The translations under genes were made by a program, and so were the position numbers. The notes under the pieces were generated by a model, which searched no databases, was not told where the DNA came from, and saw only the letters and a program-made list of their open reading frames with translations. This document shows, in pieces, positions 17,123-26,701 of a DNA stretch of 33,318 nucleotides (position 1 is the stretch's first letter; each line of letters opens with the position of its first letter). Where the stretch lies: NCBI GenBank assembly GCA_016938815.1, contig JAFGTX010000267.1, positions 1 through 33,318 of the forward strand, given 5' to 3'. The DNA is from Clostridia bacterium (lineage in GTDB: Bacteria > Bacillota > Clostridia > Peptostreptococcales > Acidaminobacteraceae).

Positions 17123-18151
17123 TTAAACAGTTTCACTATTTTTCAAATTTACAATAAGAGCCAGCGCAATGGTACCATAAGCGATGAAACTTCTAAAGTA
17201 CTCTCCTAATGCAGGATTATCAAATAGCTGTTGGCCGGCTTGTGGCGATACGATAAAGAGCGTATGAAAAACCAGTAAACCCAGAATCCCCTGTCGTACA
17301 GTCGCATCTTTTATTGTCGCACCACCTGCCATAAGTGCTGCGCTGGCAAATATCTCATGCTTTAAGTGTCCTGTATAGACATTGAGCATGCCAATATTTT
17401 GCAAATAGATCATATGTCCTAGACTTGCAACAACTGTCGATAAGACAATAGCTTTGATACGGACTTTTTTACTGTTAATACCCACCATATAAGCACGATC
17501 GCTGGAATCGCCCACACATTTTATCTCCTTTCCGAAAGGCGTATGCATTAAGTAATTGATAAAGGCGCCAAAAAATAAAACGACACCAATCATAAACATA
17601 GGAAATGAGATATCATGCAGGGTCACAACAAATATCTTATCCAACACACCACGAAAAGGCTCCAAATCGATTAAATTACGGACACCCGTTCCACGAGAAA
17701 GTAGAATTTCCGTATTCTTGACAGGAATAATGCTACCAACACAGACAAGGAAAATTAGCTGGTAAAAACCATTGGCCAAAAAACCAATAATCATCGTTGT
17801 AATCATCTCTTTTCCAGGCACCTGGTTTAGGCAGTGACCGATAAGCACACCAAATACAATTGCAAAAGTCAACGAGAGTGATAAAGCAGCCACGCCACCT
17901 AATTTCCCCCCTAGCCCTGCTGCAATGGCAATGATATACCCCATCTGTGCACACATGGCACCTACCGTCACCGAAAAATTCAAACCCATACCTGCTTTGA
18001 TCGGAATAATCAGCGCAAAAATCATAACACCGTTGCGCACAAAGCGGTTAACCGTTTCGTTAAGCACAAAACTCGGGCTAAGGCCAGAAACAGAGATACC
18101 TATAATGGACAGCACAAAAAAGAATAAAGGCATCTGATATTTTTTAAGCAT
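17123..18151 (-). CDS. ABC transporter permease (BPD_transp_2-like)
   Basis: Polytopic; GMGLNFSVTVGAMCAQMGYIIA and FASAALMAGGATIKDATVRQGILG typical of sugar/nucleoside-type permeases; adjacent to paralogous permease and ATPase. Confidence 0.88.
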   Translation of the reverse strand: MLKKYQMPLFFFVLSIIGISVSGLSPSFVLNETVNRFVRNGVMIFALIIPIKAGMGLNFSVTVGAMCAQMGYIIAIAAGLGGKLGGVAALSLSLTFAIVFGVLIGHCLNQVPGKEMITTMIIGFLANGFYQLIFLVCVGSIIPVKNTEILLSRGTGVRNLIDLEPFRGVLDKIFVVTLHDISFPMFMIGVVLFFGAFINYLMHTPFGKEIKCVGDSSDRAYMVGINSKKVRIKAIVLSTVVASLGHMIYLQNIGMLNVYTGHLKHEIFASAALMAGGATIKDATVRQGILGLLVFHTLFIVSPQAGQQLFDNPALGEYFRSFIAYGTIALALIVNLKNSETV

Positions 18152-19154
18152 AGCGGCCTCCCTTCTCTGAAATCAAAAGCGCGTAAAGTATAATACCATT
18201 GGTGATGATATTACGTACAATTTCTGAAATCTCAGGTAATAAAAGTTCGTTGGCAATCGGTACGGAAAGTAAATAGATACTTTGAAAGAGATAGGTCCCT
18301 ATAATGGCATGTATAATCGTCCCCTTTTTTGCAGAAGCGCCACCGATTAGCAGTGCAGAAACTGCGGGAAACGCCATCATCAACGGAGCATCGTAAAGTT
18401 CCAAAAAACCGAAACTTTGTGCGTAGACCACGATACCTACTGCGGCGATGACCAATGAAATTCTAACAGACAATAATTTTATTTTTTTTACATTCAAACC
18501 AGACGCCTTGGCGAAAGCGTCATTTTCTCCTACAGCACAAATACTTTTACCGGAGGTCGTTTTAAAGAAGTAATGAATTAGACCTGCTATAATCCCGTAA
18601 ACCAAGAGAAGTCCAAAGGGCAAGACGAAATTACCGACCTTTATAGACCATAATTGATCCAGTGTGCTGGTGAAGTAAGGATTCAAGCCGATTCTAGGAC
18701 GTAGTCCTGAACCACCTATTGGGTAAAGCATCTGACGATTACTAAAAGGCACCAATGACCAGAAAAAGTTCATCAGAGGGATGAAGGAAAAACCGATAAA
18801 GGTACTGGCAATCTCTTCTCTACCCTTAACAGCAATAAGGATTCTACCGTATACTTCACTAAAAGCGAGTGCAATGAACCCACCAAGCAATGCAGAAATC
18901 AGTAAACCCACTAAACCTGTCAGCTTGAAATTCACAGCGATACACATACCGATCAAGCCAGCGGTAATACCGACCGGCAAGCCAAAGTTCATGCCCATGC
19001 CCGCATTGAGCATCGGTATAAGACTTAAGACAAGTAAACCATTCATTGCGAATTTAATAAAAGATAGGTTCAATAGGACAATCATATCCATGTGCAAATG
19101 AAAAGCAAGGGCTACCAATAATACCAGAAAGCCTGCGATAATTTTATAAGCCAT
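18144..19154 (-). CDS. ABC transporter permease (BPD_transp_2-like)
   Basis: GMGMNFGLPVGITAGLIGMCIA, FPAVSALLIGGASAKKGTI. Start moved from 19259 to ATG 19154, since the upstream part overlaps the ATPase gene. Confidence 0.88.
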   Translation of the reverse strand: MAYKIIAGFLVLLVALAFHLHMDMIVLLNLSFIKFAMNGLLVLSLIPMLNAGMGMNFGLPVGITAGLIGMCIAVNFKLTGLVGLLISALLGGFIALAFSEVYGRILIAVKGREEIASTFIGFSFIPLMNFFWSLVPFSNRQMLYPIGGSGLRPRIGLNPYFTSTLDQLWSIKVGNFVLPFGLLLVYGIIAGLIHYFFKTTSGKSICAVGENDAFAKASGLNVKKIKLLSVRISLVIAAVGIVVYAQSFGFLELYDAPLMMAFPAVSALLIGGASAKKGTIIHAIIGTYLFQSIYLLSVPIANELLLPEISEIVRNIITNGIILYALLISEKGGRYA

Positions 19155-20727
19155 CAGAAGACCCTCCTTTTGAAAATGCCAATCCAAATTCTTTTGCCGA
19201 AGCATCAGGTGATAAAATTGCTGAAATTCTACCTTCTGAGAGAACCACAATACGATCACACAAACGTTTCAGTTCTTCTAATTCACTTGAAGCAATCACC
19301 AACGTCATTTTGTCCTTACGATTGCTTTCTATAAGACTCTGCAGTACTTTTTCCTTTGCAGCAATATCAATGCCACGCGTTGGTTCTGAAACAAATAGGA
19401 TGTCCGGCTCAAGTGAAAGACTACGGGCCAAACAGACCTTCTGCTGATTGCCACCACTCAAAGTCTTCACCACTTGTTGATGAGAGCGACAGACAATGTC
19501 CAATTGTTCGCAATACTTGCTGACCGCCTTATCAGCACTGGCTTTATCGTATAATTTCATCAGACCACCAAAATGTGGTTTAGAATATTTTCTATAGAGT
19601 TGCTGTGCCGTGAACACAATATTTTCTCCGATGCTATGTTCCAAAAGAAGACCGACGTTTTTACGGTCCTCACACAAAACATAAAGCCCCTTTGTAATCT
19701 TTTCTTGATAAGTTAAATTTGTAATATCAAGGCCATTCATATGTATTGCACCACGTGTGGGATAAAAACCGATAAGGCCTTTAGCCACTGCCAACTTACC
19801 ATGTCCAGACAAACTGGTAATGCCCAGTACTTCACCCTTATAAATCTCCAAACTGAAATTTTCCAAAGCTTCTCCTGGATAATCGACTTGAAAATTTTCA
19901 AACCGCATTTGTACTTCCTTTGTATCTAGCGCTCGATTGGAAACTGTTTTTTGAACTTTTTCTCCAATCATCTCTATGGCTAATTGATCCAGAGTGATGC
20001 TGCCATTTTCATAATAGCCTACCGTTTCACCATCGCGTAAAACCAAGAGATGATCACATAAACACATCACTTCTTCCAAACGATGTGAGATAAAGAGTAC
20101 AGAAATGCCTTTTTTTACCAGCTTTTTAAGCGCTGTAATTAAAAGTTGGCTGTCTTTGTCATTTAGAACTGCCGTCGGCTCATCTAAAATCAATAATTTC
20201 AGGTGATTTCGATCTAGTTCCCTTGCAATTTCTATGAACTGTTTCACACTGATTGACATATGGTCCACCAACATGCTGGCATCAATTTCAAGACCAAGAG
20301 ATTCTAGTTTTTCTTGAGCCTCCATCTGATCCTTTTTATGGTCAATAAGAAGGTAATCTTTTAAAACATGCTTAGCGAAATCTTTCACAATGTTTTCGTT
20401 ACCCAGCTTAATATTTTCTGCAATTGTCAATTTGGGGAAAAGAGCAAACTCTTGATGCACCATCCCAATGCCATACTGTGTTGCATTGCCTTCGTAGTTA
20501 ACATCCATCCTTTGCCCATCTACTTTAATTACCCCTGTATAACCACCCGTATTTTTGATGACCTGATGTCCGAAAATGATATTCATCAAGGTGCTTTTTC
20601 CAGAGCCGTTGGCACCGATTATACCTAGGATTTTGCCTGGCATTAATGAAAAATTGATATCTTTTAAAACTTCATGTTGTCCGTAATGTTTGCCGACATG
20701 ATTTAATTCTAAAATTGGTTTATTCAT
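19144..20727 (-). CDS. Two-domain ABC transporter ATP-binding protein (sugar/BMP-type importer family)
   Basis: Walker A GANGSGKST in domain 1, LLILDEPTAVLND, signature LSGGNQQK in domain 2, FVSEPTRGIDIAAKE. Confidence 0.94.
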   Translation of the reverse strand: MNKPILELNHVGKHYGQHEVLKDINFSLMPGKILGIIGANGSGKSTLMNIIFGHQVIKNTGGYTGVIKVDGQRMDVNYEGNATQYGIGMVHQEFALFPKLTIAENIKLGNENIVKDFAKHVLKDYLLIDHKKDQMEAQEKLESLGLEIDASMLVDHMSISVKQFIEIARELDRNHLKLLILDEPTAVLNDKDSQLLITALKKLVKKGISVLFISHRLEEVMCLCDHLLVLRDGETVGYYENGSITLDQLAIEMIGEKVQKTVSNRALDTKEVQMRFENFQVDYPGEALENFSLEIYKGEVLGITSLSGHGKLAVAKGLIGFYPTRGAIHMNGLDITNLTYQEKITKGLYVLCEDRKNVGLLLEHSIGENIVFTAQQLYRKYSKPHFGGLMKLYDKASADKAVSKYCEQLDIVCRSHQQVVKTLSGGNQQKVCLARSLSLEPDILFVSEPTRGIDIAAKEKVLQSLIESNRKDKMTLVIASSELEELKRLCDRIVVLSEGRISAILSPDASAKEFGLAFSKGGSSDGL

Positions 20728-20741
20728 TTTCCCTCACTGTT

Positions 20742-20769
20742 AAAAAAGGAGCTATAAGCTCCTTTTTTT
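20742..20769 (-). terminator. Intercistronic terminator/attenuator between the lipoprotein gene and the ATPase gene
   Basis: AGGAGCT-ATA-AGCTCCT flanked by an A-run and a T-run; overlaps the upstream gene's stop codon and ends about 14 nt before the ATPase start. Confidence 0.8.
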
Positions 20770-21934
20770 AATAGAAAATTGATTCCATGATTAGCACGAA
20801 ATAGTTGTCTAATTCTGGTTTCAACGTATTGAATTCTGCACTTACACCAAAAGTTTCTTCTGAGAATGCTTTAAGGTTATCAAGATTTTTATAATCGAAT
20901 GATTCATCTTCAATCATTTTCTTAGCTAGTTCCACAGCGTATTCTGGTACATAAACTGTTACAGGTACTGGCCATCCTGACAATCTGCCAGTCATATCTG
21001 CTTCGGCTGCTTTTTCAGAAATCATTTGATTGATCTTATCAAAGTTGCCAGCATCTTCTTCACTCAACTCAAGGTTCATAACTGTTGGGTATGCTTGAGT
21101 TGGCGTTGGACAACATTGTTCAGCTACGATGAATTTCAATTTTAAAGCTTCATCAATGATGACATCATACATTGGGCAGTTTGTTCCGAAAATGTTAGTG
21201 TCTACACCGTATTTCTCGATTTGTCTTGGAATATCTTCACGCAAGAACTGTTGCATTGCAGCTGGTCCGTTACCTGTTTGAGGGTCAGGTGTTGTTACTT
21301 CTACAAAAGTCATACCTAACTCTTCAGCTGTTGCTTTCATTTGATCTCTTCTTGCAACGATAACTTCTTTTGCCATATGTGTTGGGAAAGAGTAATGGAT
21401 GATTGTTTTGGCACCCATATCGTGTGCTTTTCTAGCAATTGTTTCACCACGTCTTACCCAGTCTGTGTCGATACATACATCGATGTATTTTGACATCAAT
21501 TCAGGATCATCCCAAATCGGCGCAGTCATCGTAATGATGTCAGGTCTTTTTTCTTCAATTTTTTGAAGTGCCGGTAATAAACCAGCTTGTCCTGAAACCA
21601 CGATTACCGCTTTCATTTCAGGGTCATCCGCCAAAGATGTGATTTGACTTAAACCTGTTTCGATTTCTGTTGAAAAGTTCTCTGGCAATGTGATGTGCTT
21701 TACAATGTCAGGATACTTTGCTACCATGTTTTCTGCTGCACGGTATTCATCTTCACTTGTCGATAACGTTGGTGTCACGATACCGATTTTGTAGCTAGTT
21801 GCAGTTTCTTGAGTTTCAGTAACTACAGGCTCAGTCGCCCCGCTACCTTCGCTTGATTCTTCTGCTTTTGCACCACAGCCTACAATACTGAAAGCTAGTG
21901 CAAATACCAATAACATACTTAATACTTTCTTCAC
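20768..21934 (-). CDS. DUF3798-type substrate-binding-like lipoprotein
   Basis: Lipoprotein signal VKKVLSMLLVFALAFSIVGCG; body resembles DUF3798 proteins (YKIGIVTPTLSTSEDEYRAAENM; KTIIHYSFPTHMAKEVIVARRDQMKA). GTG start at 21934 preferred over 21955, with GAGGG upstream. Confidence 0.82.
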   Translation of the reverse strand: MKKVLSMLLVFALAFSIVGCGAKAEESSEGSGATEPVVTETQETATSYKIGIVTPTLSTSEDEYRAAENMVAKYPDIVKHITLPENFSTEIETGLSQITSLADDPEMKAVIVVSGQAGLLPALQKIEEKRPDIITMTAPIWDDPELMSKYIDVCIDTDWVRRGETIARKAHDMGAKTIIHYSFPTHMAKEVIVARRDQMKATAEELGMTFVEVTTPDPQTGNGPAAMQQFLREDIPRQIEKYGVDTNIFGTNCPMYDVIIDEALKLKFIVAEQCCPTPTQAYPTVMNLELSEEDAGNFDKINQMISEKAAEADMTGRLSGWPVPVTVYVPEYAVELAKKMIEDESFDYKNLDNLKAFSEETFGVSAEFNTLKPELDNYFVLIMESIFY

Positions 21935-22000
21935 TATAAATCCCTCACAATACATTATTTATTGCACTTTCAATCCACCGCTGGAAAGAAAGAGTACAAC

Positions 22001-23131
22001 CTAGATCATTTCAAGGAACGCTTCGACCCTTGTGGCAATTTGGCCCACATCTCCTGGCGAGTAATCTGTCGTCACCTGTAAGTATGGCGTATTTCTTTTT
22101 GACATGGTTCTGCTGACCAATGTCGCTTCAACGTTATATGTGTGGCATGCATGCCAAGTCAACTCAATAACGCCATCTACTTTAAAATCATCCACCAATT
22201 GGTTTAGCAAATCCAGACGATGCGTATTTGGCGTGATACAAGGACAGGCTACGCTAAGGTATTTTTTGGCCAGCGCCTTTAGAGGGGATGGGGTATCTTC
22301 TTCCACTAAATCAGCAGTCTTCAAACCACCACAGTTTTCCATGGCGACGATGACAGCACCTTTTTCTTCGATAATATCAACAAGTTTACTGTGTGTCGTT
22401 GGACACCCCGTTAGTAATATACGCGGTTTATTTTTCATCGTACTTATAAATACGGGATCTTCTCTTCTTTTTTCTAGGGCTTCAATCGCCAATTCGATTT
22501 CCTGTACACGTTTTGGAATATTGCATTCAAAGCTGATTGCACCTCTGATATTGTTCATCTCATGCCCTGTTAACAGTGGCGTTTCCTCTGAGTTAAGATA
22601 CTGTAACCTATACATTGCTTTTCTAAGCTGGTTGTATTGCTTGATTGTTGCATTAATCATAGCATCGGTTATTTCCGTATCTGTAATGCTTTCAACGTAT
22701 GCTTTCATTTTTTCGATTTCGTTCTCAAAGTATTGATAGTCTTCTTCACGACTACAAGTATTTGGCAGATACAGGACATGAACCGGTTTAATATCTGCTA
22801 ATAATTCAAACATCTTCTTTTTGCCATCACACGTCGCATCTGCAATGATGTGCTCTGAATAATGGAAATATGGACAAGTATCAGCAATGCCGTGTCCATA
22901 ACTGGATTTAATTAAATCACATAAATTACGTGGTAAATCAATCTCTGACTTCTTAGCGCTTTCATAAGAACCAGCACAGAGTGATACTGGAATGCCACCA
23001 CCTGCGACGATAATCTCTTTAGGTGTGAAGGCACAGTATGTACCGACCACATGTTGCCCTTCTTCTCTCAGTGCCATACATTCTTTGAAAATTTCTTCGT
23101 TGATGCGTTCTGAATATTTTGTACTAAACAT
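22001..23131 (-). CDS. 2-hydroxyacyl-CoA dehydratase D-family protein, YjiM-like / double-cubane cluster protein
   Basis: VGTYCAFTPKEIIVAGGGIPVSLCAG, DLPRNLCDLIKSSYGHGIADTCPYF, ADATCDGKKKMFELLADIKPVHVLYLPN, ACPCITPNTHRLDLLNQLVDDFKVDGVIELTWHACHTY; closely resembles E. coli YjiM as I remember it. Start at ATG 23131 with GGAGTG upstream. Confidence 0.88.
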   Translation of the reverse strand: MFSTKYSERINEEIFKECMALREEGQHVVGTYCAFTPKEIIVAGGGIPVSLCAGSYESAKKSEIDLPRNLCDLIKSSYGHGIADTCPYFHYSEHIIADATCDGKKKMFELLADIKPVHVLYLPNTCSREEDYQYFENEIEKMKAYVESITDTEITDAMINATIKQYNQLRKAMYRLQYLNSEETPLLTGHEMNNIRGAISFECNIPKRVQEIELAIEALEKRREDPVFISTMKNKPRILLTGCPTTHSKLVDIIEEKGAVIVAMENCGGLKTADLVEEDTPSPLKALAKKYLSVACPCITPNTHRLDLLNQLVDDFKVDGVIELTWHACHTYNVEATLVSRTMSKRNTPYLQVTTDYSPGDVGQIATRVEAFLEMI

Positions 23132-23256
23132 GTGATTCACTCCAATAACTAATTTGTTAAGCCCTTCACCAGTATAGAGTGATATCAATCGTTTGTACAA
23201 TAAAAAAAAACAATAGTTATCGTGCATTTATTTTTTATTCGAATATCACTTTTTTG

Positions 23257-23294
23257 AAAAAAAAAGCGTGGAACTTTTCGTTTTCCACGCTTTT
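23257..23294 (-). terminator. Intrinsic terminator downstream of the rpiR-type gene
   Basis: Minus strand AAAAGCGTGGAA...TTCCACGCTTTTTTTTT. Confidence 0.85.
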
Positions 23295-23310: not shown

Positions 23311-24174
23311 CTATTTCGGATTGTAAATCTTATAATTTTCCCAAATACCTTCTAATTTGCCAAAGGACTTTTTAACCTTGTCTTTTTCACAGATACTTAC
23401 CGCGATGATCAAGGTATTGACCAAACTCATCGGTGCAACTAACGAGTCGATAAAGGTATTCATATTGTATTTTGCGGTCATGTAGTAGTCTGACAGCGGT
23501 ACTAGTGGTGAGCTTGTACTATCGGTAATACCGATTAACTTCGCGCCCTGTGACTTCGCAAACTCTACAACCTCATAAGTCGTTTTTGAATATCTTGGGA
23601 AAGAGAAAGTAATCAGTACATCATCTTCTGTGATATTCAACAACTGGTCGAATAAATCATTGGCTCCAGATGGCACAATAGCTACCGAATCCAAAATGAA
23701 ATTCAAGTAGAAGCCGAGGTAATTGGCTAGAACAGAAGAACTTCTGAGGCCTAGCACATAAACCTTTCGAGCCTTCAATAAGGCGTCCACGGATTTTTGA
23801 ATCATTTCTTCGTCGATCGCGTCCATGGTCTTCCGTATGTTCTCCATATCAGAAGCCATAATCTGTTTCAAATAATTTTCACCAATATCATAGTCCTCCG
23901 ACAGTTCAAAACGTTGAACCGTCGTCAGTTTTGTCTTTATAGATTCCTGAAGCGCCTTTTGTAATTGTGGATACCCTTCGTAGTCAAGCGCGTTAGCGAA
24001 CCTTACGACCGTAGACTCACTTACGCCAACAACGTCCCCAAGGGCTGATGCCGTCATAAATGCCACCTTGTCATAATTCGCCAGTATATAATCTGCAATA
24101 CGTTTCTGTCCTTTACTTAAACCTAAATAGTTCGTCTCAATTCTGTTCAGCAAATCATTACTTGTACTACTCAT
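23311..24174 (-). CDS. MurR/RpiR family transcriptional regulator (HTH plus SIS domain)
   Basis: LSKGQKRIADYILANYDKVAFMTASALGDVVGVSESTVVRFANALDYEGYPQLQKALQ and SIS region VYVLGLRSSSVLANYLGFYLNF. Confidence 0.92.
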   Translation of the reverse strand: MSSTSNDLLNRIETNYLGLSKGQKRIADYILANYDKVAFMTASALGDVVGVSESTVVRFANALDYEGYPQLQKALQESIKTKLTTVQRFELSEDYDIGENYLKQIMASDMENIRKTMDAIDEEMIQKSVDALLKARKVYVLGLRSSSVLANYLGFYLNFILDSVAIVPSGANDLFDQLLNITEDDVLITFSFPRYSKTTYEVVEFAKSQGAKLIGITDSTSSPLVPLSDYYMTAKYNMNTFIDSLVAPMSLVNTLIIAVSICEKDKVKKSFGKLEGIWENYKIYNPK

Positions 24175-24197
24175 AGAATCTCTCTCCTTAAATCATA

Positions 24198-24743
24198 TTA
24201 TCTATTTAAGGCCAATTTGTATCCTGCTTCAAGCGCTGTTTTATTTAAATCTTCCGTTCCTTTTGGCACTCTGTTTAGTAAAGCAGTCTCTACTGCAGCT
24301 CTACTTACAACGCCTGTGATTTCAGTGATGGCACCTACTGCAACGATATTACCTACAATAGATTTGCCCACATCTTCTGCCGCTGTTTTCAAGATAGGAA
24401 TAGAAATAATTTTTTTGGCCTTTACTGTACTTGGTACATTAATTGCTGAGTCAACGATAACGACACATTCTTCGTTCACTTCAGCTAAATACTTGTCTGC
24501 AGCAACTTGAGTCAACGCCAATAAGTAATTTGGTTCCTGAACCTTTGGAAAATGAATCTCATTTGAGCTGATAATAACTTCAGCCTTAGATGCACCACCA
24601 CGCGCTTCAGGGCCGTAACTTTGAGATTGGATGGCATTATTGCCTTCACCAATTGCTGCTTCTGCTAATATTATACCTGCAAGAATAATCCCTTGTCCAC
24701 CAGAACCGGTTAATCTTATTTCAGTTTGCTTTGACATAGTCAT
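24198..24743 (-). CDS. korC: 2-oxoacid:ferredoxin oxidoreductase gamma subunit
   Basis: RLTGSGGQGIILAGIILAEAAIGEGNNAIQSQSYGPEARGGASKAEVIIS. Confidence 0.92.
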   Translation of the reverse strand: MTMSKQTEIRLTGSGGQGIILAGIILAEAAIGEGNNAIQSQSYGPEARGGASKAEVIISSNEIHFPKVQEPNYLLALTQVAADKYLAEVNEECVVIVDSAINVPSTVKAKKIISIPILKTAAEDVGKSIVGNIVAVGAITEITGVVSRAAVETALLNRVPKGTEDLNKTALEAGYKLALNR

Positions 24744-24749
24744 CCCCTC

Positions 24750-25568
24750 CTACTTCTTAAGACGCTCAATGATTGATTCATAAGCTACAGTATACTCGAC
24801 AACGCCTTCTTCTTTCTTGAATTCACCCATTAAGAATTTGCCAGCTTTTTTCTCTTCAGGCAATTTTTCTGCAACTTTTACGTCGATGAATGAATCTTTT
24901 AGGAATGCAATCATATTGGCAGCAGAACCTTTTTTGTTCTTTCTACCGTAGTAAGTAGGACATGTTGAAATCACTTCTACCATTGAGAAACCTTTATGCG
25001 CAATCGCAGTTTCAATCATTTTCTCCATTTGGTTTGCATGGTAAACAGTAGATCTTGCTGCATAAGTTGCGCCAGCAGCTGCAGCCAATTGAGCGATGTC
25101 AAAAGGTCTATCGATGTTACCATGAGGTGCAGTTGTTCCTAAATCACCATTTGGTGTTGTTGGAGAATACTGACCACCTGTCATACCGTAAATGTTGTTG
25201 TTGAATACGATTGTAGTGATGCCAATATTTCTTCTTGCTGCGTGGATCAAGTGGTTACCACCGATAGCAGACGCATCACCGTCACCGGAAATAACGATAA
25301 CTTCTAATTCCGGATTAGCAAGTTTTACACCTGTAGCAAATGCAAGTGCTCGACCATGTGTTGTATGCAATGTATTGAAATCTAAGTAGCCAGGTGCTCT
25401 TGAAGAACAACCGATACCTGATACAACACAAACTTTATCTTTATCTAAACCTAAGCTGTCGATTGCTTTAGCAAGCGCAAGCATGATAATGCCGTTTCCG
25501 CATCCTGGACACCAAATATGTGGTAGATTGTCCATTCTGAAATATTTTTCTACGATTGGATTATTCAC
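24750..25568 (-). CDS. korB: 2-oxoacid:ferredoxin oxidoreductase beta subunit (TPP-binding)
   Basis: WCPGCGNGIIMLALAKAI, SGDGDASAIGGNHLIHAARRNIGITTIVFNNNIYGMTGGQYSPTTP. Confidence 0.94.
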   Translation of the reverse strand: MNNPIVEKYFRMDNLPHIWCPGCGNGIIMLALAKAIDSLGLDKDKVCVVSGIGCSSRAPGYLDFNTLHTTHGRALAFATGVKLANPELEVIVISGDGDASAIGGNHLIHAARRNIGITTIVFNNNIYGMTGGQYSPTTPNGDLGTTAPHGNIDRPFDIAQLAAAAGATYAARSTVYHANQMEKMIETAIAHKGFSMVEVISTCPTYYGRKNKKGSAANMIAFLKDSFIDVKVAEKLPEEKKAGKFLMGEFKKEEGVVEYTVAYESIIERLKK

Positions 25569-26701
25569 TACAATACCTCCTTAACTTTTGCTGCTATTTC
25601 AGCAGGTGTCAATACATCGCCGTTTGCTTTTCCAACATGTGAAACTTTTGCTGCACCTTTTACAACACGTTCTACTTCGTAAACGTATTGTCCAAGGTTT
25701 AACTCTGCAACTACGATGTTGTCGAATTGTTCAGCTAATGCTTTAACACGTTTTTCTGCAAATGGCCAGATTGTAATGGCTCTGAAAAGACCCGCTTTGA
25801 TGCCTTCTTCTCTTAATTGATCGATTGCAGTCTTTGCAGCCCTTGCACTACTGCCGTATGAGAAAATACATACTTCAGCGTCATCCAACATATATTCTTC
25901 ATACTCGATAAGATCATCAAGATTATCTTCAACTTTTTTCATCATTCTATCTAACATGAAGCCTGCGTTTTCCGTGCTGTTGCTTGGGAAACCAGTTTCG
26001 TCATGGAATAGTCCTGTTACATGGTATCTATGGCCAGAACCGAAAGCAGCCATTCTTGGTACAAGGTCGCCTTCTCTTACGCCGTACGGTATATAAGTTT
26101 CACCTTCAACTGGCTCAAGACGGTTGTATATTTCCAACTCACCTGGCTCAGGAATTTCGATTTTCTCTCTCATATGTCCAACGATTTCATCTGTTAATAA
26201 CATAACTGGTGTTCTATATTTTTCAGCTAAATTAAAAGCTCTTACTGTAAGGTCAAATGTTTCTCTAACTGTTGATGGTGACAATGCAATTACTGGGTGA
26301 TCACCGTGTGTACCCCATTTTGCTTGCATAATTTCACCTTGTGCCGGTGCAGTAGGAAGACCTGTACTTGGGCCACCCCTTTGAACGTTAACGATTACAA
26401 GTGGAATTTCTGCGATCATTGCATAACCAATGTTTTCTTGCTTTAATGAAAAACCAGGACCGCTTGTTGCTGTCATGGATTTCTTGCCAGTTAAAGCACC
26501 GCCGATTGCAGCTGCGATACCAGCAATTTCATCTTCCATTTGAATGAATTTTCCACCTACTGTAGGTAATAGTTCTGCAGATTTTTCAGCAATTTCAGTG
26601 GAAGGCGTAATAGGGTAACCTGCATAAAATCTCATACCTGCATATAAAGCACCTTCTACACAAGCTTCGTTACCTTGCATTAATTTTATGTTTTTACTCA
26701 T
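25568..26701 (-). CDS. korA: 2-oxoacid:ferredoxin oxidoreductase alpha subunit
   Basis: MQGNEACVEGALYAGMRFYAGYPITPSTEIAE, MEDEIAGIAAAIGGALTGKKSMTATSGPGFSLKQENIG. Confidence 0.94.
   Translation of the reverse strand: MSKNIKLMQGNEACVEGALYAGMRFYAGYPITPSTEIAEKSAELLPTVGGKFIQMEDEIAGIAAAIGGALTGKKSMTATSGPGFSLKQENIGYAMIAEIPLVIVNVQRGGPSTGLPTAPAQGEIMQAKWGTHGDHPVIALSPSTVRETFDLTVRAFNLAEKYRTPVMLLTDEIVGHMREKIEIPEPGELEIYNRLEPVEGETYIPYGVREGDLVPRMAAFGSGHRYHVTGLFHDETGFPSNSTENAGFMLDRMMKKVEDNLDDLIEYEEYMLDDAEVCIFSYGSSARAAKTAIDQLREEGIKAGLFRAITIWPFAEKRVKALAEQFDNIVVAELNLGQYVYEVERVVKGAAKVSHVGKANGDVLTPAEIAAKVKEVL

Follow-up and report, generated by a model that had tools for sequence, protein, structure and literature searches.

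Double-cubane proteins (DCCPs) bear a nitrogenase-like iron-sulfur cluster. The literature describes them as the archetype that gave rise to the benzoyl-CoA reductases and the hydroxyacyl-CoA dehydratases, and states that what they do in the cell is unknown (PMC11971306). In a stretch of 33,318 nucleotides from a Clostridia bacterium (the window), a DCCP gene heads a minus-strand run of five consecutive genes at 17123-23131, followed by the genes of a DUF3798 lipoprotein, a two-domain ATPase, permease A and permease B. This arrangement raises the question of whether the enzyme acts on what the importer brings in, as an earlier note on this DNA had proposed. The evidence gathered here makes it somewhat better than an even bet (about 0.55) that these genes form a unit dedicated to importing a compound and reducing it.

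Genes and signals of the cluster

The features of the cluster, in window positions, are the following.

22001..23131, minus strand: DCCP, HgdB/YjiM-like (NF040772, PF06050, PDB 6ENO/7YYL, Cys columns)
20768..21955, minus strand: DUF3798 lipoprotein, predicted type-I substrate-binding protein (PF12683, PDB 3QI7, AlphaFold/Foldseek, Cys conservation)
19144..20727, minus strand: two-domain ABC ATPase of the RbsA/XylG/GguA type (ABC_tran, two stretches)
18144..19154, minus strand: ABC permease A (BPD_transp_2, 53.7 bits; ribosome-binding site and start read)
17123..18151, minus strand: ABC permease B (BPD_transp_2, 34.2 bits against a cut-off of 26.8)
about 20741..20768, minus strand: terminator-like hairpin at the lipoprotein/ATPase junction, AAAAAAAGGAGC TTATA GCTCCTTTTTT (-14.5 kcal/mol, z -4.4)
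23171..23200, minus strand: candidate promoter TTGTAC-18-TATACT, read from the sequence and unproven
about 23260..23294, minus strand: terminator hairpin with a U-run between the rpiR and DCCP genes (-16.3 kcal/mol, z -3.9)

The five genes are thus present as the earlier note had described them, and profile matches confirm their families. The first product scores 440.6 bits against the NCBIfam equivalog model NF040772 (double_cubane, cut-off 350), which makes it a member of this family, and 333 bits against HGD-D (PF06050). It matches PDB 6ENO/7YYL (E 7e-70), the alignment with 6ENO spanning 360 residues. Among 46-47 aligned sequences, including 6ENO and the window DCCP, eight Cys columns are invariant, and the window protein retains all of them (C33, C52, C71, C86, C101, C267, C296 and C329, numbered from the ATG at 23131). 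These residues could provide the ligands of an [8Fe-9S] cluster; in that of BzdN, six irons are Cys-ligated (PMC11971306). The ATG at 23131 is preceded by a plausible ribosome-binding site, while the mechanical open reading frame already begins before the proposed -10 box, at 23227. Assignment to the 2-hydroxyacyl-CoA dehydratases or class I benzoyl-CoA reductases, for which genes of two different HGD-D subunits should lie together with those of a CoA-ester pathway, was rejected: the window holds only one HGD-D gene, and the BzdN, BcrC and HadC models score far under their cut-offs.

The second product matches DUF3798 (PF12683) over its full length (403.8 bits, model positions 1-271 of 271). 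It carries a lipobox Cys (Cys27), and translation likely starts at a GTG near 21934. Its sole PDB relative found by sequence is 3QI7 (E 5.7e-102). The AlphaFold model (pLDDT 77.5) has 3QI7 as its best Foldseek match (E 1e-34), followed by proteins that bind sugars or AI-2 and by regulators related to them, so the lipoprotein is predicted to have the type-I periplasmic-binding-protein fold. Profile searches gave no match to a recognised sugar-binding family. The literature passages found contain no functional assignment for DUF3798; its pairing with importer genes suggests that it serves as the substrate-binding protein of the importer. In the DUF3798 tree, the window-like proteins form a sharply separate subfamily (clade A, support 100, long stem), with 58-75% identity to the window lipoprotein versus 46% or less for the other members. 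Three cysteines of the lipoprotein (C260, C281 and C282) are conserved in most DUF3798 proteins, which rules them out as specific to clade A, and are missing from 3QI7. A profile alignment pairs C260 with the Asp of the ND motif of sugar-binding proteins, at a probability of 5.5% that is too weak to place cysteines where type-I binding proteins contact their sugar.

The lipoprotein, the fused ATPase and the two permeases follow each other in the order of an ABC importer of the two-domain-ATPase type. Permease A starts at the ATG at 19154, inside a longer mechanical open reading frame beginning at 19259. The closest NCBIfam relatives of the ATPase are GguA, XylG and AraG, with scores below the equivalog cut-offs. 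A sugar or nucleoside importer was considered; sugar transporters are the best NCBIfam matches but lie far under the cut-offs, which leaves the cargo unassignable by homology.

One transcript may cover the DCCP and importer genes. The earlier statement that no terminator separates the enzyme and lipoprotein genes holds, the only hairpin between them lacking a U-run (z -2.75). The promoter that the earlier note proposed upstream of the enzyme gene fared less well: the motif is there, but promoter-like matches in the region (15, against 21.1 expected from shuffles) do not exceed the shuffled expectation. Two other signals had been overlooked. The terminator upstream of the DCCP gene is the upstream limit of the unit and separates it from rpiR-korABC. 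The hairpin at the lipoprotein-ATPase junction is matched in stability by none of 200 shuffles and recurs in nearly all clade-A loci, where its position is kept and its sequence differs. It fits a common device that would yield more binding protein than permease. No riboswitch or other known RNA reaches the gathering threshold in the window.

Next to the cluster, an rpiR regulator gene lies downstream of korABC, encoding a 2-oxoacid:ferredoxin oxidoreductase (23311-26701), beside which no gene for a ferredoxin-type KorD subunit was seen. These genes were rejected as part of the unit, owing to the intervening terminator and because none of the other clade-A loci inspected has them next to its cassette.

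Pairing of DCCP and importer across genomes

The DUF3798 gene, the ATPase gene and two permease genes form a widespread four-gene importer, and most of the further DUF3798 loci fetched show them in this same order. A DCCP gene lies directly upstream on the same strand in 11 of the 22 clade-A loci (the window, L150, L182, L087, L154, L183, L186, L187, L189, L192 and L193) and in none of 40 other DUF3798 loci, the latter count resting on the sequence fetched per locus, with some short contigs. Fisher's test gives P 1.4e-6 for this difference, a value that ignores relatedness, related loci not being independent. The survey consists of samples from genome searches; a single-protein scan of genome contigs gave only 4 loci. 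Around the importers outside clade A, only varied neighbours were seen as potential conserved partners, some of them two-component regulators. Four loci from several genomes of one genus (L073, L074, L075 and L076) carry two DUF3798 genes in a row, the second a divergent copy, with no adjoining ABC transporter genes.

The pairing takes several forms. L187 and L189 show the order DCCP-DUF3798-ATPase-permease-permease-DCCP-activase, L186 has an activase-like open reading frame after the importer, and in L188 a DCCP-YedF-activase group lies 4 kb upstream of the importer. In L153 (10521-10796, minus strand), the clade-A DUF3798 gene is directly preceded by the remains of a DCCP gene, interrupted by stop codons, and another place in this genome (L195) holds an intact DCCP from that lineage. 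An NF040772 DCCP and an activase were found in each of the 19 clade-A genomes searched, including eight without a directly adjacent DCCP; DCCPs were found in 35 of 291 genomes of the class, at a threshold comparable, not identical, to the one used for clade A. L194 (7341-10556), L213 (7368-11130), L187 and L189 contain a pair of DCCP genes, either adjacent to each other or on both sides of the importer, with one activase gene after them; heterodimeric DCCPs are possible there.

The 11 cassette DCCPs belong to at least four lineages. A tree that unites them in one clade is rejected by the AU test (p 1.5e-53), which speaks against a single origin of the DCCP in these cassettes, and at least 5 label changes are forced on the tree. 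DCCPs would thus have been recruited repeatedly beside clade-A importers, or an old pairing would have been renewed as one DCCP replaced another. In either case, the pairing would have been selected for. No description of it was found in the literature searched, a search that did not include Haft and Gwadz 2023 and Haft and Tolstoy 2025.

These data bear on whether the adjacency arose by chance or by hitch-hiking, with no functional link. Since almost every gene in the window is read from the minus strand, same-strand neighbours are to be expected. However, with two DCCPs among some 3000 genes, chance adjacency would occur in roughly 2 in 3000 cases per locus, which makes 11 of 22 by accident negligible, and the pairing repeats in independent lineages amid unrelated surrounding genes. 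Very improbable for this genome, this explanation is refuted for the clade-A subfamily. The import-and-reduce idea survives the survey for conserved co-occurrence: of its two parts, the functional link between the clade-A importer and the DCCP is well supported by the genome comparison (11 of 22 against 0 of 40 loci, 19 of 19 genomes), and the identity of the imported ligand with the DCCP substrate would be the simplest reading.

Another explanation, which seems unlikely, is that importer and DCCP are regulated together because both belong to one physiological theme, for instance the use of selenium or anaerobic metabolism at low potential, the importer feeding some other pathway and the DCCP not acting on the imported compound. 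It accounts for the half of clade-A importers (11 of 22) without an adjacent DCCP, which make the adjacency frequent, not obligatory. It also agrees with the further DCCPs that clade-A genomes often hold elsewhere, and with the DCCPs commonly found beside selenium genes with no importer at all (L216, L217 and L220). Yet a shared theme does not predict a pairing restricted to one DUF3798 subfamily, involving at least four DCCP lineages and constant in order and strand.

A DCCP needs an ATP-dependent activase, whose absence from the cluster the earlier note had overlooked. No activase gene adjoins the DCCP gene in the window cluster, and the same is true of most cassette DCCPs; for stand-alone DCCPs, the activase gene is usually adjacent. 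An activase is available in the same genome, where a YjiL-like gene (C31:4856-5581) lies directly downstream of a second DCCP gene, and it may serve the window DCCP. Next to this second pair (C31:4829-6738) lie genes of an ABC exporter and a gene for a TetR-like regulator.

The import-and-reduce unit that we favour would work as follows. The DUF3798 lipoprotein would capture a small molecule outside the cell, and the ATPase with the two permeases would bring it in. The ATP-hydrolysing activase encoded elsewhere in the genome would charge the DCCP with low-potential electrons, and the DCCP would reduce the imported molecule or something derived from it. Several points count against such a unit: the terminator-like hairpin inside the cluster, the unproven promoter, the lack of an activase gene in the window, and the clade-A importers without an adjacent DCCP, which may work alone or with a DCCP acting in trans. 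As the pairing arose or was renewed repeatedly, and only with the clade-A importer, the cargo of the importer is a good lead to the DCCP substrate. The recurrently paired binding protein gives a direct experimental handle on DCCP function.

Candidate cargo of the importer

The leading guess for the ligand, a tentative one, is a compound containing selenium, sulfur or a metal(loid). It comes from the selenium and Sao (selenocysteine-assisted organometallic) neighbourhoods of related DCCPs, from the near-universal SelD and from the conserved cysteines of the binding protein. A SelD gene with an in-frame TGA occurs in 18 of the 19 clade-A genomes, and the assembly that lacks it is 88% complete; the published figure for Clostridia is 42% (PMC10418091), which is not a matched control for clade-A genomes. 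A link between DCCPs and selenium genes was already noted in published surveys (PMC5322559, PMC10418091). For example, L216 (5117-9993) and L217 show by sequence the order YqeB-YedF-SelD-DCCP-activase, YqeB and YedF scoring over cut-off in L216, and L219 (5558-11216) shows DCCP-activase-SelD. In L205, L213, L218 and L220 (2499-6534), genes resembling those of a Sec lyase and of a Se/S carrier lie near the DCCP gene, the likeness having been model-tested in L205 and L218. The window has no selenium gene near the cluster. Since DCCPs are tied to selenium genes in general, the link to selenium is a correlative one.

Some DCCPs adjoin importers of unrelated types: Sao-type ABC (L082, L208 and L204), ECF/MptD (L197), PAAT (L219) and BMP (L221), which suggests that the association of an importer with a DCCP is a wider theme. 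In L082 (7180-10550) and L208 (5790-12693), the DCCP gene lies in or beside a Sao locus, with SaoA, SaoT and SaoE over cut-off in the former and SaoB in the latter; in L222, SaoE lies beside an activase-DCCP pair, and in L204 (987-5076) a DCCP is found near a Sao-like importer. Sao selenoproteins are discussed as parts involved in metal binding or metal(loid) resistance (PMC13188914). It is conceivable, if rather doubtful, that the clade-A importer and the DCCP together take up and reduce a compound containing selenium, sulfur or a metal(loid), in a pathway that evolved in parallel to the Sao systems. If this were true, the ligand of the importer would be the first known natural substrate for a DCCP-type double-cubane protein.

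In a special form of import and processing, the DCCP would act on an imported complex and set free its metal, metalloid or chalcogen by reduction, instead of reducing an organic substrate. The DCCPs in or beside Sao loci (L082, L208 and L222) speak for it, the role guessed for Sao being the processing of metal chelates or organometallic compounds, as does the resemblance of C260 and the vicinal C281-C282 of DUF3798 to the CU/CC pair of SaoB (PMC13188914). However, none of the families SaoA/B/C/E/P/T/X is among the NCBIfam matches of the ten proteins around the cluster (for the ATPase, among the best 25 of 188 families), the solved relative 3QI7 lacks the three cysteines, and their placement in a ligand site depends on the weak profile alignment to sugar-binding proteins mentioned above. 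Such a release reaction appears unlikely.

Comparison with known systems

The favoured import-and-reduce unit resembles several known systems in part. Like the window cluster, the Sao operons combine an ABC importer with a binding protein bearing vicinal Cys or Cys-Sec residues, and DCCPs are their neighbours in L082 and L208; however, their binding-protein, ATPase and permease families differ from those of the window. The RbsABC, XylFGH and LsrABCD importers share with it the type-I binding-protein fold, the two-domain ATPase and the BPD_transp_2 permeases. Unlike these ribose-, xylose- and AI-2-type importers, the window importer scores far under all sugar equivalog cut-offs.

The structure 3QI7, from Clostridium difficile 630 and labelled as a putative transcriptional regulator, belongs to the same family and has the same fold as the window lipoprotein. 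The window DUF3798 protein differs from it in being a lipoprotein whose gene is followed by those of an ATPase and two permeases, which makes a role in transport far more likely than one in regulation.

The closest counterpart of the enzyme is found in the DCCP/DCCP-reductase pair of Carboxydothermus hydrogenoformans (PDB 6ENO; related to YjiM/YjiL of E. coli), to whose DCCP the window protein is homologous over its full length, with the eight cysteines shared. The C. hydrogenoformans pair consists of a DCCP and an adjacent activase, whereas in the window the importer takes the place of the activase, which is encoded elsewhere in the genome.
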